Positions 18,680 through 31,900 of a DNA stretch of 33,282 nt are shown in pieces. A program made the translations under genes and the position numbers. Source of the stretch: a virus. Position 1 is the stretch's first letter. Each line of letters begins with the position of its first letter. Where the stretch lies: positions 1 to 33,282 of IMG/VR virus record IMGVR_UViG_3300047354_000849, one strand, 5' to 3'. The notes beneath the pieces were generated by a model. The model did no database searches. It had not been told where the DNA came from and saw only the letters and a program-made list of their open reading frames with translations.

Positions 18680-19300
18680 ATGAGTTATAGTATAAATGCA
18701 ACAAACGCAAGATTATTAGCGAGGGCAGACCTTACTATATTCAATGAAACACAAGCCCTTATGAAACAAGTAATAACAGATGCTGGCAACGGCTTATATC
18801 AGACAATTATCAGTGACGGCACTGAAATGACAGAGAGTACACCAACTATTGTAGTAACAGGTAGTGTTGCTAATCCAACCATTACTGCAACACCAACTGT
18901 AATACTTGGTGGACAAACAGTTACACTAGGAACAACAGGTACAAGTTTAAATGCAGTTATAGCTGACATCAATGATGCGGCTGTACCAGGTGTTGTAGCA
19001 AGCAAAAATGCAACTAACAATCTTGTGATTACATTTACATGCAGTCAGACACTTACATGGACATTTATAGTAGGAGCAGGAACTGCAAACACAGACCTAG
19101 GACTTACAGCCGCTACAAATACAGCAACCAATCCTGGTAGTGTAGACTACTATAACTGCTGGCAAGGAAATGCTACTAGCAGACCAAAGACTGATCAGAT
19201 GAATCAAGTTTTACTATACTTTCAAAACTTAGGTTACACTATTGATCGTCTAAAGAATACCTCAACAGGTAAAACCCTTAAATGGGTAATAAGCTATTAA
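18680..19300 (+). CDS. Putative virion structural protein with Ig/hook-like insert
   Basis: 206 residues. The ends (MSYSINATNARLLARADLTI and YYNCWQGNATSRPKTDQMNQ to ISY) look like a compact conserved core. The middle (~52-150) is a Thr/Ala/Val-rich beta region with GGQTVTLGTTGTSLNAVIAD and GVVASKNATNNLVITFT, resembling inserted hook domains of flagellin-like or Ig-like surface proteins. AAGGA precedes the ATG. Late, surface-exposed virion protein is the likely role. Confidence 0.6.
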   Translation: MSYSINATNARLLARADLTIFNETQALMKQVITDAGNGLYQTIISDGTEMTESTPTIVVTGSVANPTITATPTVILGGQTVTLGTTGTSLNAVIADINDAAVPGVVASKNATNNLVITFTCSQTLTWTFIVGAGTANTDLGLTAATNTATNPGSVDYYNCWQGNATSRPKTDQMNQVLLYFQNLGYTIDRLKNTSTGKTLKWVISY

Positions 19301-25648: not shown

Positions 25649-28200
25649 GTTTTAAAGATTTTAAAGGTGGTCTGCAAAGTGCAAATGACTACTTGGATAC
25701 GAAACATCATCTCAGTGGTACACAAGCCGCTGGTACTGATGCATTACGTGGTGTAGTAAGTGCAGAATACAGTTTTACTCTCAGAGAACTACTATGTGGA
25801 CTGTTAGCAGGTAATGGATTAAAATTACCTAATGTACAGCTATGCTTGCACAGTAACATTGGTGCTCTACTTGGTATTCAAGGTTTGCAAAGTGAATTGC
25901 AAGATGCCCTATCTGAATTGCAAGGTGATTTAGAAAAATTTATGGATCACACTAAGTTTGACCAAGTATTAGGAAGACTTAATGGTGTACTAGCTGAAGC
26001 ACAAAACGTTGCTAACATGATTAACTTCTGTAGTGCTCCAGTAGATCCTATTGCTATTCCAAATATGTTAGAACGTGCAATGGGTAGTTTCCTTGGCGCA
26101 GGTAAATCAATTACTGATGCTATTGGTGCTATCTCAGATGCAGATATGTGTGCTTGTATTAGTACAAACGGTGGCTTTAACAGTAATGTGTTTAATGGCG
26201 GACTACTTGGTAATATCTCAAATAACCTTAGTAGAATTACTAGCGGATCACTAATACAAAGTGAACTTGATGCAATCTTAAATGATGTGAAAAGTATTGG
26301 TTCACAAATTACTGGACTAATTGATTTTGAAAATACAATAGGCGGAAGCTATGCAAGAGGCGGTAGCCAGTTTGCTCCAACTGATCCAGGTTGTAATGCA
26401 CAAATTGGTGTTATGCATAACGGAGCAAGTGGTGGTATTGCAGGTAACGCAAGACTAACAAGTCAACTTAAAAGTTTATATGATAGACTAGGTGGATATC
26501 CAGTACAGTATTCAAAAGGTGCAAGTACAGGACAACAATTAGCAGGACATCAATATGACGAAGCTGGTAATAGAGTTTTTGGTGAAGAAGTAATTGAATT
26601 TCCAAATATCTTCCATTTGTTATTAGACCAGGAGCTATTATCACTATTAGAAAAAGATGATAATCCAACACCTAATGTTGATACGCAAACTCCTGTAATG
26701 GATTATTGCGGAAACATTATAGGATTTACACAAAATCATCAACAGCGTGAAGACGAAAAAAGTGAAGGTAGTGTACCAGTCACTCCACAAGATAGACCAG
26801 GATTTAATGCTGGTGGCTTTACTACAGATACTAGTAACATATCAGGTAGTGGTGCAACAGTAAGCGGTACAACTGTTATTAATAACTTTGCTGGCACTGG
26901 AAACACATTGTTTGTAGTATCAAGTGAAGCGGCACAAAACGCACTAACAGCAAACGAAAATGATATTATTGTTAGAAGCGATATACTTACAGTATTCACT
27001 AGAAAGAATCCAACAACTAATTCAAGTGGTACAATAAATGATTATCAACAAGCAACTAGTACACTATTTGATTTTTTAAACAATTTGAATATAGAACCTA
27101 GCAGTGGACTAATTGTTAAAGATGGAACTGTAAGTAGAGCAAGAAGTGTTGAAGGCACAAGTGGACAAACTAGAGTTTCAAACGGAGATGGTATTGGTGG
27201 CAATATTAAAGTTGAACTAGAAGAAAACACAAGAATACCAGGCACAGCGGCAGTTAAGATACCGGTTGGCACAACTGCTCAAAGACCACAAACAGAAGTC
27301 GGCGAAATAAGATATAACAGCGATACACATAATATTGAAGCATATTTTGGTGATACTACTACTTGGAAGAGTTTATTAACAACATCAAGCAGTACTGGCA
27401 TACAAGGTGGATTAAATGTAGGATCCGGCAGTCAAGTATTCAAAGATGCAAACGGATCAGACCTGAGATTTAGAAGTATTATTGGTGGCACAGGTATTAC
27501 TGCTACACAAAATGCAGATGATATTACACTCACTGATAGCATCACAGCCAGCAACATAGGCAGTGGTACCGGTGTGTTTGGTGCAAGAACAGGTGATAAC
27601 TTTAGTTTTAAAAGTATTACAAGTACAGACGGCACTGTAACAATTACCAATGATGCTACCAGTGTAAACCTAAGTAGCATGGGAGGCATACCAAGTGACC
27701 CATTACAAACAACAGATGGTACTGCAACTGTATTACAGTTTAATGGTGGTACACCAGAACCAGCAAGTGATAAAACTTGGTTCTTTGAAATAAGAGCATT
27801 AGGTGTAGCAACTAGTGGCGAAAAGCAAGCATTCAAAGTTGAAGGACTTGTAACAAATGTAGCTGGTACACTTAGTATAATTGGAACTCCTATTAAGATT
27901 GATTATCAAAGAACAGGTACAAGTGATGTTGGTGTTGCTAGTTGGGACGCAATGGCAAGTTATAGTCCAGGTGATCTAGTTGAATATAATCTTAACACCT
28001 ATACAGCTAATAATGCTATTACTGGTGGCGGTGGTACTAATAATTTAAGTCCGGATCAGGATACTACAAATTGGGCAGTATCCTATACAGGATGGAATGT
28101 AAATGCAGAAGTTATTGCAAACCAATTCCGTGTAAGAGCTAAAGGATCAGCAGGTAAAACTGTTACTTGGAGTTCGGCAATCACATTCATTGAAGCATAA
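25645..28200 (+). CDS. Large virion protein (baseplate/fibre-like) with carbohydrate-binding-like insert
   Basis: 851 residues. The N-terminal ~300 residues are helical with Cys pairs (YSFTLRELLCGLLAGNGL, NVQLCLHSNIG, INFCSAP, ADMCACIS), then a beta-rich, Gly/Thr/Ser/Asn-rich part with repeating GSGTGVF-, GGTGIT- and DITLTDS-type strands typical of fibres. Around residues 770-815, SWDAMASYSPGDLVEYNLNT then YTANN and TTNWAV resemble a small chitin-binding (CBM5/12-type) fold. It is coupled to the PAAR gene, so it belongs to the baseplate or host-contact apparatus. Exact T4 equivalent unclear. Confidence 0.65.
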   Translation: MSFKDFKGGLQSANDYLDTKHHLSGTQAAGTDALRGVVSAEYSFTLRELLCGLLAGNGLKLPNVQLCLHSNIGALLGIQGLQSELQDALSELQGDLEKFMDHTKFDQVLGRLNGVLAEAQNVANMINFCSAPVDPIAIPNMLERAMGSFLGAGKSITDAIGAISDADMCACISTNGGFNSNVFNGGLLGNISNNLSRITSGSLIQSELDAILNDVKSIGSQITGLIDFENTIGGSYARGGSQFAPTDPGCNAQIGVMHNGASGGIAGNARLTSQLKSLYDRLGGYPVQYSKGASTGQQLAGHQYDEAGNRVFGEEVIEFPNIFHLLLDQELLSLLEKDDNPTPNVDTQTPVMDYCGNIIGFTQNHQQREDEKSEGSVPVTPQDRPGFNAGGFTTDTSNISGSGATVSGTTVINNFAGTGNTLFVVSSEAAQNALTANENDIIVRSDILTVFTRKNPTTNSSGTINDYQQATSTLFDFLNNLNIEPSSGLIVKDGTVSRARSVEGTSGQTRVSNGDGIGGNIKVELEENTRIPGTAAVKIPVGTTAQRPQTEVGEIRYNSDTHNIEAYFGDTTTWKSLLTTSSSTGIQGGLNVGSGSQVFKDANGSDLRFRSIIGGTGITATQNADDITLTDSITASNIGSGTGVFGARTGDNFSFKSITSTDGTVTITNDATSVNLSSMGGIPSDPLQTTDGTATVLQFNGGTPEPASDKTWFFEIRALGVATSGEKQAFKVEGLVTNVAGTLSIIGTPIKIDYQRTGTSDVGVASWDAMASYSPGDLVEYNLNTYTANNAITGGGGTNNLSPDQDTTNWAVSYTGWNVNAEVIANQFRVRAKGSAGKTVTWSSAITFIEA

Positions 28201-28203
28201 ATA
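28196..28203 (+). promoter_or_regulatory. Late-type box (CATAAATA) with embedded stop, no close gene
   Basis: One mismatch from consensus, containing the stop TAA (28198-28200) of the large virion gene. The next ORF starts 145 bases away behind an early promoter, so this box has no obvious client. Confidence 0.35.
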
Positions 28204-28243: not shown

Positions 28244-28272
28244 TTGACAAGTAAGTCATCTTGCCATACACT
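28244..28272 (+). promoter_or_regulatory. Early promoter
   Basis: TTGACA at 28244-28249, 17-bp spacer, TACACT at 28267-28272. It drives the small genes from 28348; the leader is about 70 nt. Confidence 0.65.
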
Positions 28273-28286
28273 CTTACTATAGTAAG
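28273..28286. promoter_or_regulatory. Perfect 14-bp palindrome at the early promoter start point
   Basis: CTTACTATAGTAAG is its own reverse complement and follows the -10 box directly, spanning the predicted transcription start. This is the position of an operator. What binds is unknown. Confidence 0.5.
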
Positions 28287-28347
28287 AATGAATGGAGAGA
28301 TGTCATGGCACATCGAATACTAACATAGGCAATAGAAAGGCAAAACA

Positions 28348-28638
28348 ATGAGGTCAAAAGACACTGGCGATGGTAGAAAGATCTTGGCAAAAGTAGAGGT
28401 CCCATTAAGCGTAGAAGACATTGCGACATACGCATTACGTTATCTTGACGAGATCGACGATGACGACCCCAAGGATACATTAATTTGTGCAAATAAAAGA
28501 GAAATCTTTAATATGGCAAAAACTGCTATATTCAAATGGGGAACACAAGAACCAAAAACATATGTAGCCGAAAACATGAATGGACACTTTGAACCTATAC
28601 ATCAAGTGGTCAAACAAAAGTTTCCGGAGTGCGACTAA
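28348..28638 (+). CDS. Hypothetical early protein, 96 aa
   Basis: AAAGG precedes the ATG. An acidic, soluble protein: VEVPLSVEDIATYALRYLDE, then EIDDDDPKDTLICANKREIF, then helix IFKWGTQEPKTYVAENMNG. No family recognised. It follows an early promoter with a palindrome and is coupled to the next gene by TAATG. Early host-takeover role is likely by position only. Confidence 0.7.
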   Translation: MRSKDTGDGRKILAKVEVPLSVEDIATYALRYLDEIDDDDPKDTLICANKREIFNMAKTAIFKWGTQEPKTYVAENMNGHFEPIHQVVKQKFPECD

Positions 28639-28988
28639 TGACAGCAGAAATATTTAATTTTAGTGTTGAACGAGCCAAACGTAAAAGCGGATTTAATGAC
28701 ACTGCACTATTAGAAGATATGGTAGCCGAAGGATATGATCCTTGCGATCCAATTGAAATCCAAAATTATTATCAATGGAAAAACTTCCAAAACGTTATAT
28801 ATGATGATATTGATATTGGACACAACTGGACTGAAGAAGCATTAGATAGACTGTTTACAGATATAAAAAATATGGATCCAACACAAAATATCACTTATAC
28901 AGTGGATATTTCAGACACAGATCTCAAAGATTTAGTTATTGAAACTGACAAAAACTTTGATTTTTCTCATCTTTTACCTAAAAAATAG
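28638..28988 (+). CDS. Hypothetical early protein, 116 aa
   Basis: The best start is ATG 28638 (TAATG with the previous stop; CGGAG upstream); a GTG at 28629 lies inside that Shine-Dalgarno and is less likely. Acidic and helical, with VERAKRKSGFNDTALLEDMV, NYYQWKNFQNVIYDDIDIG and EEALDRLFTDIKN. No family recognised. Downstream follows a strong promoter. Confidence 0.7.
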   Translation: MTAEIFNFSVERAKRKSGFNDTALLEDMVAEGYDPCDPIEIQNYYQWKNFQNVIYDDIDIGHNWTEEALDRLFTDIKNMDPTQNITYTVDISDTDLKDLVIETDKNFDFSHLLPKK

Positions 28989-28989
28989 C

Positions 28990-29018
28990 TTGACAGTATG
29001 ACATCTTGGTGTTATAGT
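28990..29018 (+). promoter_or_regulatory. Strong early promoter
   Basis: TTGACA at 28990-28995, 17-bp spacer, TATAGT at 29013-29018. AAGGAG follows at 29032-29037 before the ATG at 29044. Confidence 0.8.
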
Positions 29019-29043
29019 GTATGTAGTTAATAAGGAGAAAGAC

Positions 29044-29364
29044 ATGGGAATGAATGTAACAGTGATCCACAAAGCATTTGAAGATGCACCAATCACAGTA
29101 GCAGAAGTTGAAACAACACTTAATACTGTTGATGAAGCTCTTGAATATGCTTATCGTTGGACAAACAATGTAATGGGTAGTTGGAGTCGACCTGAGAAGA
29201 CTTTCTCAAATGGTGATAAAAACGGTGATTACAATCCAGCAGTTACAACACTTGCTCCACTACATGATGGAATGGGACTTCGGTCAACTAGCATGGGTGA
29301 CGAGATGATTGTCGATGGTAAAACTTTTAAAGTTGCAATGTTAGGTTTTGAGGAGGTTGTATAA
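29044..29364 (+). CDS. Hypothetical early protein, 106 aa
   Basis: Start chosen as ATG 29044, 6 bases after AAGGAG; the GTG at 29017 would overlap the -10 box and is unlikely. A compact mixed fold: VTVIHKAFEDAPITVAEVET, NTVDEALEYAYRWTNNV, then DGKTFKVAMLGFEEV. No family recognised; early control and position suggest a host-interaction or regulatory protein. Followed by TAATG. Confidence 0.72.
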   Translation: MGMNVTVIHKAFEDAPITVAEVETTLNTVDEALEYAYRWTNNVMGSWSRPEKTFSNGDKNGDYNPAVTTLAPLHDGMGLRSTSMGDEMIVDGKTFKVAMLGFEEVV

Positions 29365-29645
29365 TGCAAGTTAATTTTGATTTGGAAGATATTGCTAAAG
29401 TACAACATGCAAATTCTTTTACTGAAGCAAAAAGTAACTTTATAAAAGTTATAGAACGTTCTACAGTAGGAAAAAGCAAACGTCCTATTAGCCCAAATAA
29501 AATTAGTTACTATAAAAAAAGAATTACAGAGCTTGATTCAAAATTAGATTTAGTGAGCTTGTTCTGGAATATGTACATGGCAGGTGAAGGGTTAGGAGTT
29601 CCTAACAGTTCATACCAAAAAAACTTTAACAGTTGGAGTCGATAA
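29364..29645 (+). CDS. Hypothetical protein, 93 aa
   Basis: ATG shares one base with the previous stop; GAGGAGG lies upstream, so translation should be strong. Basic and helical: VQHANSFTEAKSNFIKVIER, then KSKRPISPNKISYYKKRITE. C-terminal NSSYQKNFNSWSR is aromatic. No family recognised. Confidence 0.7.
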   Translation: MQVNFDLEDIAKVQHANSFTEAKSNFIKVIERSTVGKSKRPISPNKISYYKKRITELDSKLDLVSLFWNMYMAGEGLGVPNSSYQKNFNSWSR

Positions 29646-29830
29646 TGAACGATTTAATCCAAGACATCGAAATACTTGAAGGTGCAATCATTAACTTGAC
29701 AGAAGGTGCAAGTGATGAGAAGCGAATGGCAGTTTATTCTCTGGAGAATATGATTGCTCAAAAGAAAGCAATCGTCGAACAGTTCGAAGCAGAAAATGCT
29801 CCGGACTATCAATTTGAACTTGACATTTAG
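29645..29830 (+). CDS. Small acidic protein, 61 aa
   Basis: Start chosen as ATG 29645 (TAATG with the previous stop, GGAG upstream); the upstream TTG 29633 is less likely. Helical: IQDIEILEGAIINLTEGASD, then LENMIAQKKAIVEQFEAENA. It looks like a two-helix hairpin or dimeric coiled coil. Its stop lies within the next promoter. Confidence 0.65.
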   Translation: MNDLIQDIEILEGAIINLTEGASDEKRMAVYSLENMIAQKKAIVEQFEAENAPDYQFELDI

Positions 29831-29848
29831 TAGCTGAAGTATTATATT
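29820..29848 (+). promoter_or_regulatory. Early promoter
   Basis: TTGACA at 29820-29825, 17-bp spacer, TATATT at 29843-29848. It overlaps the end of the upstream gene. The client gene starts at 29872 after AAAGG. Confidence 0.75.
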
Positions 29849-29871
29849 GTATATAAAGAAAGGTATATGGT

Positions 29872-30096
29872 ATGGCTACTTACGAAGTTGAAAACATTTT
29901 TTATAATAATTACGGAGGTGTACAAACTAAAAGTTGTGACCTCTTTGGTACTAAGAACCAAGCTATGAAACATATGAAAAAATTAACAAATCAAAGACAT
30001 GGCTTAAACAAACAAGGCAAAGTTGAAGATGGTGTTGTTATCTTTACTGATGATTCAGGCAAAGTAAGAGAACGCATTATTTTTGGCGAAGTGTAA
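29872..30096 (+). CDS. Hypothetical early protein, 74 aa
   Basis: ATG preceded by AAAGG. A compact basic protein: YEVENIFYNNYGGVQTKSCD, then AMKHMKKLTNQRHGLNKQG and a strand pair VVIFTDDSGKVRERIIFGEV. No family recognised. It ends inside a late-type box (TGTAAATA). Confidence 0.7.
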   Translation: MATYEVENIFYNNYGGVQTKSCDLFGTKNQAMKHMKKLTNQRHGLNKQGKVEDGVVIFTDDSGKVRERIIFGEV

Positions 30097-30823: not shown

Positions 30824-31525
30824 ATGTTAGTAAATGAAGTAATTATGAATGATATAAATGAGGGTCCTAACGATCCTCATATTTTCAAAGCAGTATTCCT
30901 TGCAGGTGGTCCAGGTTCCGGCAAGGGTTTTGTTGTGAAGAATCTTATGGGTGGTGGTTCTACTGGTTTGCGAATTGTAAACAGTGATGACGTGTATGAA
31001 AAACTGGCAAGTATAGCAAAGCCAGAACCATTAGACCTAAAAGACCCAGAAGTGGTTGCAAGTCCACAAGGGCAGGAAGCCAGAGAAAAAGCAAAAAAAT
31101 TAACCAAAGCTAGACAAGGTAATTACTTGGATGGTAGATTGGGATTGATTATTGATGGCACTGCTAAAGACGTAGAAAAAACAAAACGTCAGAAAGATGA
31201 GTTAGAAGCATTAGGGTACGATACTATGATGGTATTCGTAAACACTAATATGGAAGTTGCACAAGACAGAAACAGAAAACGAGCCCGTCAATTGCCAGAT
31301 GAAATGGTAATGAAGATGTGGCATGCTGTGCAAGATAATTTAATGAAGTTCCAACAATTATTTGGTAACCAAAATTTCTACTTAGTAGATAATAGTGGCG
31401 GTTTGGAAGATCCAGATCGCAAGGAAAACTTTGAGACGGTCGAAAAAGCTATCAAGAGATTCATAAACACACCGCCTCGTAAACCACAAGCAAAATCCTG
31501 GCTATTGGACAAACGTCCGCAATAA
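30824..31525 (+). CDS. P-loop kinase (zeta-toxin/PNK-like)
   Basis: 233 residues. After an N-terminal peptide (MLVNEVIMNDINE/GPNDP) comes a P-loop, AVFLAGGPGSGKGFVVKNL, then IVNSDDVYEKL, LIIDGTAKDVEKTKRQKDEL and VFVNTNMEVAQDRNRKRARQ, the order of a small ATP/GTP kinase of the zeta-toxin or polynucleotide-kinase group. The N-terminal I-N-E/G matches the gp21 prohead protease pattern, so it may be packaged in the head. A second ATG (30845) also exists. The substrate is unknown; a nucleic acid or nucleotide-sugar target is possible. Confidence 0.72.
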   Translation: MLVNEVIMNDINEGPNDPHIFKAVFLAGGPGSGKGFVVKNLMGGGSTGLRIVNSDDVYEKLASIAKPEPLDLKDPEVVASPQGQEAREKAKKLTKARQGNYLDGRLGLIIDGTAKDVEKTKRQKDELEALGYDTMMVFVNTNMEVAQDRNRKRARQLPDEMVMKMWHAVQDNLMKFQQLFGNQNFYLVDNSGGLEDPDRKENFETVEKAIKRFINTPPRKPQAKSWLLDKRPQ

Positions 31526-31552: not shown

Positions 31553-31900
31553 ATGTATACATATCAATGCAATACAATCAGAGTGATAGATGGAAATACT
31601 GTTGACGCTAACATTGACTTAGGTTTCAATGTGGTTATTAGGCAACGTATTAAACTGTATGGTGTCAATGTAAAAGACATTAGAAGTAGTGAAGAGACAG
31701 ACAGACAATCAGCTCTAGCTAGTAAAACAAAATTAGCTGAGCTATTAGGTAATGAATTTGTATGTGAAACTATAGTTAACAAAAGAGGAAAAGCAGGTCG
31801 AGTAATGGGCAAGCTGAGTACGGTTAACGCAGATGGCACAAGTATTGATGTCAATCGGCAACTTATTGATTTAGGTTTTGCCGAACGTTTTGGAGATTAA
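31553..31900 (+). CDS. Staphylococcal nuclease-like protein with altered active site
   Basis: 115 residues with the SNase fold: IRVIDGNTVDANIDLGF, IRQRIKLYGVNVKDIRSSE and VNKRGKAGRVMGKL then DVNRQLIDLGFAERF. Where the family has D-G-D-T it has D-G-N-T, and where it has D-x-P-E it has N-V-K-D, so two metal/catalytic acids are not in their usual place. AGAAGGA lies upstream. It may be inactive as a nuclease, bind nucleic acid, or use another arrangement. Confidence 0.7.
   Translation: MYTYQCNTIRVIDGNTVDANIDLGFNVVIRQRIKLYGVNVKDIRSSEETDRQSALASKTKLAELLGNEFVCETIVNKRGKAGRVMGKLSTVNADGTSIDVNRQLIDLGFAERFGD

Follow-up and report, generated by a model that had tools for sequence, protein, structure and literature searches.

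A virus-specific family of sigma-70-type promoters with a spacer palindrome as a candidate operator for small accessory genes of marine myoviruses

Introduction

Does a run of small genes without known relatives, lying behind strong host-type promoters in a virus genome, belong to a jointly controlled set, and if so, by what is it controlled? The question is raised by a cluster of six short open reading frames in the window analysed here, which is the entire IMG/VR virus record IMGVR_UViG_3300047354_000849 (33,282 nt). A sequence-only reading of this locus had proposed three TTGACA-N17 promoters, a motif shared between spacers, and a perfect palindrome at one start point as a candidate operator.

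Genes for a T4-style replication set and for ribonucleotide reductase are present in the window. Its replicative helicase shows 50% identity to that of Pseudomonas phage PA5oct, its UvsW-like helicase 56% to Sinorhizobium phage Phosso and 52% to PA5oct, and its NrdB 63% to Xanthomonas phage XbC2. The enzymes are closest to those of jumbo phages, and the window is most likely a piece of a large marine myovirus. In a relative of the window, G001 (172 kb; L277-L285), the small genes include those for IF-3, IF-1, ribosomal protein S21, GTP cyclohydrolase I, dihydrofolate reductase and a DUF1127 protein.

Promoters and genes of the cluster

Promoters were assigned to a group termed class A if they consist of TTGACA, a 17-bp spacer with AAGACRTCTT (at most one mismatch) at offset 2 or 3, and TANNNT. 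The promoters, spacer palindromes and genes of the cluster, and the genes downstream of it, are as follows.

28244..28272, + strand: promoter P1, a class A variant (TTGACA, 17-bp spacer, TACACT), kept in 19 relatives
28253..28262: O1, operator-like palindrome AAGTCATCTT in the P1 spacer, one mismatch to AAGACRTCTT, offset 3
28348..28638, + strand: ORF1, 96 aa, with a conserved basic N-terminus (RKILAKVEVPLS); no Pfam or PDB relative found
28638..28988, + strand: ORF2, 116 aa, keeps its place with ORF1
28990..29018, + strand: promoter P2, class A (TTGACA, 17-bp spacer, TATAGT)
28998..29007: operator-like palindrome ATGACATCTT in the P2 spacer, one mismatch to AAGACRTCTT, offset 2
29044..29364, + strand: ORF3, 106 aa, present in Methylophilales phage Melnitz and in 130 or more viral stretches
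29364..29645, + strand: ORF4, 93 aa, accessory and sporadic (4 of 81 relatives' loci)
29645..29830, + strand: ORF5, 61 aa, widely kept
29820..29848, + strand: promoter P3 (TTGACA, 17-bp spacer, TATATT), without the palindrome, kept in 16 relatives
29872..30096, + strand: ORF6, 74 aa
30123-30800: cell-wall hydrolase (Hydrolase_2), downstream of the cluster
30824-31525: zeta-toxin/polynucleotide-kinase-like P-loop protein, downstream of the cluster
31553-31900: protein matching endonuclease PHROG phrog_452, downstream of the cluster

All three TTGACA-N17 promoters are present where the sequence-only reading had placed them (28244, 28990 and 29820), and each is kept in relatives. TTGACA-N15..19-TANNNT occurs 11 times on the + strand of the window and never on the - strand; in Markov-shuffled sequence 1.0-1.3 matches are expected for TTGACA-TANNNT at a spacing of 16-18, and generic sigma-70-like matches overall are no more frequent in the window than chance predicts. 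The motif "catct", said to link P1, P2 and the promoter at 385, does recur in P1 and P2, where it is the right half of the spacer palindrome and no free motif. In the 385 promoter it lies elsewhere in the spacer, and of the 35 relatives of that gene only the nearest two retain it; this third link is thus attributed to chance. P3 and the 385 promoter stand outside class A, each with six mismatches to the palindrome at best, the latter also having a 16-bp spacer. The AAA-type ATPase (447-1463) behind the 385-412 promoter is found in at least 206 viral stretches, and its type of promoter is conserved, mostly with a 16-bp spacer ending in GATG(T/C), followed by TATTAT and an GTATATATAAGTTG start region.

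For none of the six ORFs was a Pfam or PHROG family found, in keeping with their earlier description as proteins without known families. ORF1 and ORF2 hold their position behind a fibre-like virion gene, which ORF1 follows directly even in distant relatives; ORF1 was considered as a virion protein and rejected, as it has no PHROG match. Across 22 diverse viral homologues, that of Melnitz among them, 35 positions of ORF3 are invariant, and the AF2 model of ORF3 is a confident fold (pLDDT 91) for which no convincing PDB relative was found (best Z 3.6). Its C-terminus, which we had taken to resemble YodL-type proteins, received no support for this from PHROGs or the PDB. In relatives, a gene inserted on either side of ORF3 (towards ORF2 or towards ORF5) often brings a class A promoter of its own. 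Thus, the locus acts as a hotspot for cassettes of promoter and gene, as would be expected of early accessory cassettes.

The class A promoter family

Relatives of ORF3 were gathered by protein, the promoter playing no part in their choice. Most are preceded by a P2-type promoter, the spacer of which reads gtAAGAC(A/G)TCTTgaatg or near it. The class A consensus is GGTTGACAAGTAAGACATCTTACTGTATACTATAAGTATAGTTAATAAAAAAAGGAGTTA, and the operator-like element has the extended form AGTAAGACRTCTTACT around the core AAGACRTCTT. The pattern TTGACA-N2..3-AAGACRTCTT-N4..5-TA was found in at least 120 viral stretches, several with 2-5 copies, compared with 26 stretches, every one single-copy, for a control pattern with scrambled palindrome. 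With up to one mismatch there are 203 distinct class A sites, ahead of 61 gene clusters, and the roughly 61 gene families behind them are unrelated to one another. The start codon usually lies 24-46 nt past the -10 element. P2 conforms to this (ATG at 29044, 25 nt behind 29018); at P1 the distance to the ORF1 start is 75 nt, outside that range, owing to a long leader specific to ORF1.

In nine long contigs the perfect palindrome AAGACGTCTT is in promoter register, exactly between -35 and -10, at 17 of 18 sites, and AAGACATCTT words are so at 23 of 35, while 19 control palindromes built from the same half-site letters are never found in that register. There are 3 to 8 class A copies per contig (zero in Melnitz and in contig G008), a count to be read with the choice of contigs in mind, as several were picked for a match to the pattern and so were bound to hold at least one site, though not many. 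For this reason only the regions upstream of ORF3 relatives are free of bias, and the nine-contig register count partly so. In most class A contigs, spacer palindromes also outnumber those of shuffled spacers. One of the control palindromes, AGCAATTGCT, is unusually frequent (28 counts on both strands vs 0-4 for the other controls) and lies outside promoter spacers. Some sites have another layout, TTGACA-N4-TGTCAA, in which the -35 element is itself an arm of an inverted repeat (L071, L072, L074; G001 at 19139).

A search of 257 Gb of bacterial genomes gave 46 scattered matches, one of which (L249) has a convincing full layout, and the contig of the metagenome-assembled genome (MAG) that holds it is probably a phage. 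No cultured class A phage was found when the 60-base consensus was compared with 50,697 phage records, and no earlier description of such promoters in the literature searched, which lay mostly outside subscription journals. Class A is, on this comparison of sequences, a well-established, virus-specific and previously unnoticed promoter family, spread over a large clade of marine phages. When 20 of the gene families behind class A promoters were scanned against PHROGs, one ATP-dependent DNA ligase and two ATPase-like families were identified, and the remainder were unmatched or matched families of unknown function; no recognised virion gene was among the 20. This agrees with a presumed early accessory role of the downstream genes; an anti-defence function, as raised in the sequence-only reading, would go beyond it.

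The simplest account of the locus, near to that of the sequence-only reading, is a plain early cluster with ordinary strong promoters whose shared motif is coincidental. Conservation of P3 and of the 385 promoter without any palindrome is what it would predict. For P1 and P2, the placement, copy number and conservation of the palindrome exclude coincidence, and this account is very improbable.

A second palindrome in Melnitz-type promoters

Two promoters of Methylophilales phage Melnitz hold a different palindrome, TGTTATNATAACA, at the position of the class A palindrome. A search for this Melnitz-type pattern returned 95 viral stretches, compared with 5 when a control palindrome was used. The 44 distinct Melnitz-type sites with a -10 element likewise fall into two registers, with a median distance of 32 nt from the -10 to the start codon.

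Two protein families are found behind both types of promoter. The MFRIP family (79-82 aa, identity of 67% or less) has class A promoters in one set of members and Melnitz-type promoters in the other, and the same division is seen in a metalloprotease-like family at about 30% identity. The promoter shell is kept and the palindrome is different, as expected for an operator with lineage-specific recognition; an operator that can be exchanged between lineages appears to be the best explanation. In Melnitz, 31 early promoters have been predicted with BPROM, and the passages on promoters there mention no operator (PMC9004378). A simplified temporal regulation was proposed for the phage because middle promoters were not found (PMC9004378).

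Proposed role of the spacer palindrome

The spacer is fixed at 17 bp, and the class A palindrome occurs in two registers within it, 3+10+4 and 2+10+5. This shift by one base relative to both hexamers at constant spacer length indicates that the palindrome is separate from sigma recognition. Symmetric positions of the palindrome vary together no more than independent positions would; nothing therefore points to a DNA hairpin, and a cruciform or hairpin role was rejected on this ground. The same result fits a protein site, without being proof of one.

We infer that the class A palindrome is an operator for a dimeric, probably phage-encoded repressor that gates small early accessory genes, and give this reading a probability of about 0.6. 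In outline, a host sigma-70 promoter with the optimal 17-bp spacer would harbour a palindromic operator, as in P1 and P2; a dimeric DNA-binding protein, most likely encoded by the phage, would occupy it and block host RNA polymerase from the promoter; and the scattered small early accessory genes would thereby be gated or shut off jointly. At P1 a degenerate operator and a second copy (O2, below) mirrored about the start point would make for an arrangement resembling autoregulation of ORF1. Promoters with near-consensus hexamers and a 17-bp spacer do not need an activator, which favours repression as the effect of binding.

Conversely, the palindrome might be an activator site or a recognition element for host polymerase modified during infection, with the genes being turned on. 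An element fixed between -35 and -10 would suit such a role, and the region downstream of the class A -10, which is also conserved and partly common to Melnitz promoters, suggests more than plain sigma-70 sites. Against this, hexamers and spacing are already near optimal, the palindrome moves by one base relative to both hexamers, and MerR-type activators work on spacers of 19-20 bp. We consider activation unlikely, also in view of T4-like early promoters having been described without mention of a palindrome (PMC1524935).

The P1 dyad, the ORF1 leader and late expression

The surroundings of P1 contain further elements, and a second late promoter element lies at the other flank of the cluster.

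28196..28203, + strand: T4-type late promoter element CATAAATA, kept in all aligned relatives; the last part of the fibre-like gene overlaps it
28273..28286: CTTACTATAGTAAG, a perfect palindrome that covers the expected start point and forms the middle of a dyad of about 54 bp
28287..28347, + strand: untranslated leader of ORF1, strongly conserved, ATGGAGAGATGTCATGGCACATC...ATAGGCAA..GAAAGGCAAAACA
28297..28306: O2, second operator-like site, in the ORF1 leader, GAGATGTCAT, two mismatches, mirror partner of O1
30811: T4-type late promoter element, the second one flanking the cluster

O1 and O2 mirror each other about 28279/28280, the expected start point. The perfect palindrome between them, put forward earlier as the candidate operator, is indeed exact, conserved and located on the start point, but as the main operator it gives way to the recurrent palindrome in the spacers. 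The distance between its arms differs by one or two bases among relatives. Over 12 distinct sequences the P1 dyad is 97.9% paired, but compensatory changes are lacking, and the data fit a DNA dyad as well as an RNA hairpin. No Rfam match was found for the leader. Folding is stronger than in shuffles, with z = -4.1 for the 148-nt RNA starting at 28203 and z = -3.6 for the isolated dyad; among 3691 overlapping windows of 63 bases along the contig, 24 fold as strongly.

The late element at 28196, conserved and just upstream of P1, had been overlooked in the sequence-only reading. [CT]ATAAATA occurs 7 times on the + strand of the window and not at all on the - strand, against a Markov mean of 2.1 on the + strand, and T4-type late elements are therefore taken to be present. 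Late expression of ORF1 and ORF2 is possible, because the 28196 element reads towards them and ORF1 adjoins the fibre-like virion gene. The two genes may be transcribed from P1 early and a second time, late, from 28196. No clear terminators were found at the cluster, which together with the late element would allow late read-through.

A stronger version of this would have ORF1 and ORF2 as late genes served mainly by CATAAATA at 28196, with the P1 dyad acting as an RNA hairpin, e.g. in processing or translation control. Conservation of the late element, the folding values of the RNA from 28203 and of the dyad, and the varying arm spacing of the central palindrome, which a hairpin would tolerate, are all in line with it. 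However, compensatory changes are absent and 24 of the 3691 windows fold equally well. Distant ORF1 relatives (about 35% identity) have moreover kept a strong TTGACA promoter, mostly with the CATCTT element or a variant of it, and the five distant homologues with a full upstream region have no late element within 200 nt. A closer homologue (L015) has both the TTGACA promoter and the late element. On balance a mainly late role is unlikely, and early transcription of ORF1 from P1 under a spacer operator is the reading that we prefer.

Search for the binding protein

The palindrome itself points to one known protein. Its core AGACRTCT is the met box AGACGTCT, with the same eight bases when R = G, and the phages might thus exploit the host repressor MetJ, in which case the promoters would sense the methionine/SAM state. 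The met-box consensus is AGACGTCT, and in E. coli two to five such boxes generally lie side by side at a met gene (PMC12925634). The class A site profile is that of a single box, not of two or more. In the Vibrio sonorensis class, MetJ was found in only that species itself among 56 sampled genomes; it was found neither in the MAG holding L249 nor in any of 21 viral records. Use of MetJ in this way is highly unlikely.

Among the viral records searched there were no matches to RHH_1 or HTH_3 either, and a single match to Arc below the cut-off. When ORF1 was aligned with one MetJ sequence, hhalign gave a probability of 0.2%, i.e. no profile similarity. MetJ was rejected as the binder because these phages do not have it, the site is a single box, and ORF1 shows no profile similarity to it.

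ORF1 was considered as a ribbon-helix-helix repressor; database, profile and fold comparisons gave no support for this, and its AF2 monomer is helical with 17 unordered residues at the N-terminus. Of 58 records, 22 have a member of the ORF1 family; Melnitz and PA5oct (which are complete and without class A) have none, but this distribution follows clade, and the association of ORF1 with class A is therefore weak. ORF1 may nevertheless be named as a weak candidate for the regulator, since P1 has a degenerate operator and a mirrored second copy, as an autoregulated gene might.

AbrB/MazE-like proteins of 57-64 aa (G001, G004, G010, G023) were rejected: they are conserved, but do not track class A, occurring also in Melnitz and G008, and the large class A contigs G002 and G009 yielded none. 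Their motif LPxxLLNQVGWDxGDTLIW is seen at L282:1916-2098, L295:10057-10227 and L299:16333-16524 and in L352, with more distant copies in Melnitz and a Synechococcus phage. An intersection of the genes of seven class A contigs, all of them fragments, yielded no obvious regulator in the shared core.

Comparison with known systems

The layout described here has much in common with T4-type early promoters, which are likewise strong host-type promoters scattered before small ORFs, and the window combines early-type promoters with TATAAATA-type late elements as T4-type myoviruses do. The difference is the palindrome that fills the spacer in class A; for T4-like early promoters a preference in the -35 region and for UP elements is reported, and a palindrome is unmentioned (PMC1524935).

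The early promoters of Melnitz, which like its OM43 host is in culture, have the same layout (TTGACA, palindrome, TATACT and a similar downstream region) and differ in the sequence of the palindrome. PA5oct, a Pseudomonas jumbo phage of the Arenbergviridae, ranks, by its core genes, with the nearest cultured relatives; it has 32 TTGACA-type sites, but neither a repeated spacer palindrome nor a relative of ORF1 was found in it. The MetJ regulon has an eight-base palindromic core identical to that of class A or one base off, yet it uses two to five boxes instead of one, and MetJ was not found in these phages. In further contrast, the class A compound promoter is essentially confined to viruses, with one convincing copy in a bacterial genome (L249).

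Lambda-type operators and the stoperators of mycobacteriophage L5 are cases in which many copies of one short operator control phage promoters genome-wide, and operator sequences of phage immunity systems are lineage-specific. Class A resembles these systems in both respects, i.e. a short operator-like element in multiple copies and a lineage-specific sequence. It differs from them in that the phage is apparently a lytic myovirus whose replication and late elements are T4-like, in that the putative operator is always inside the spacer, and in that no CI-like HTH_3 repressor was found.

Early control in lytic T4-like and jumbo phages is usually described as consisting of host promoters that are later shut off by modification of the polymerase. 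Spacer operators with lineage-specific palindromes, if true, would be a missing regulatory layer in this scheme, and uncultured marine phages would have hundreds of their small accessory genes in one co-regulated set. A more far-reaching and tentative proposal is that lytic marine myoviruses possess genome-wide early regulons, with lineage-specific operators in sigma-70 promoters and dimeric repressors of their own, the same genes being wired to different operators and ORF1 being a possible founder of a new regulator family. The class A palindrome provides a sequence handle both for finding the regulator and for probing the silencing of superinfecting phages. If the proposal holds, operator differences could also silence early genes of a close relative that superinfects, resulting in an immunity-like specificity without lysogeny.
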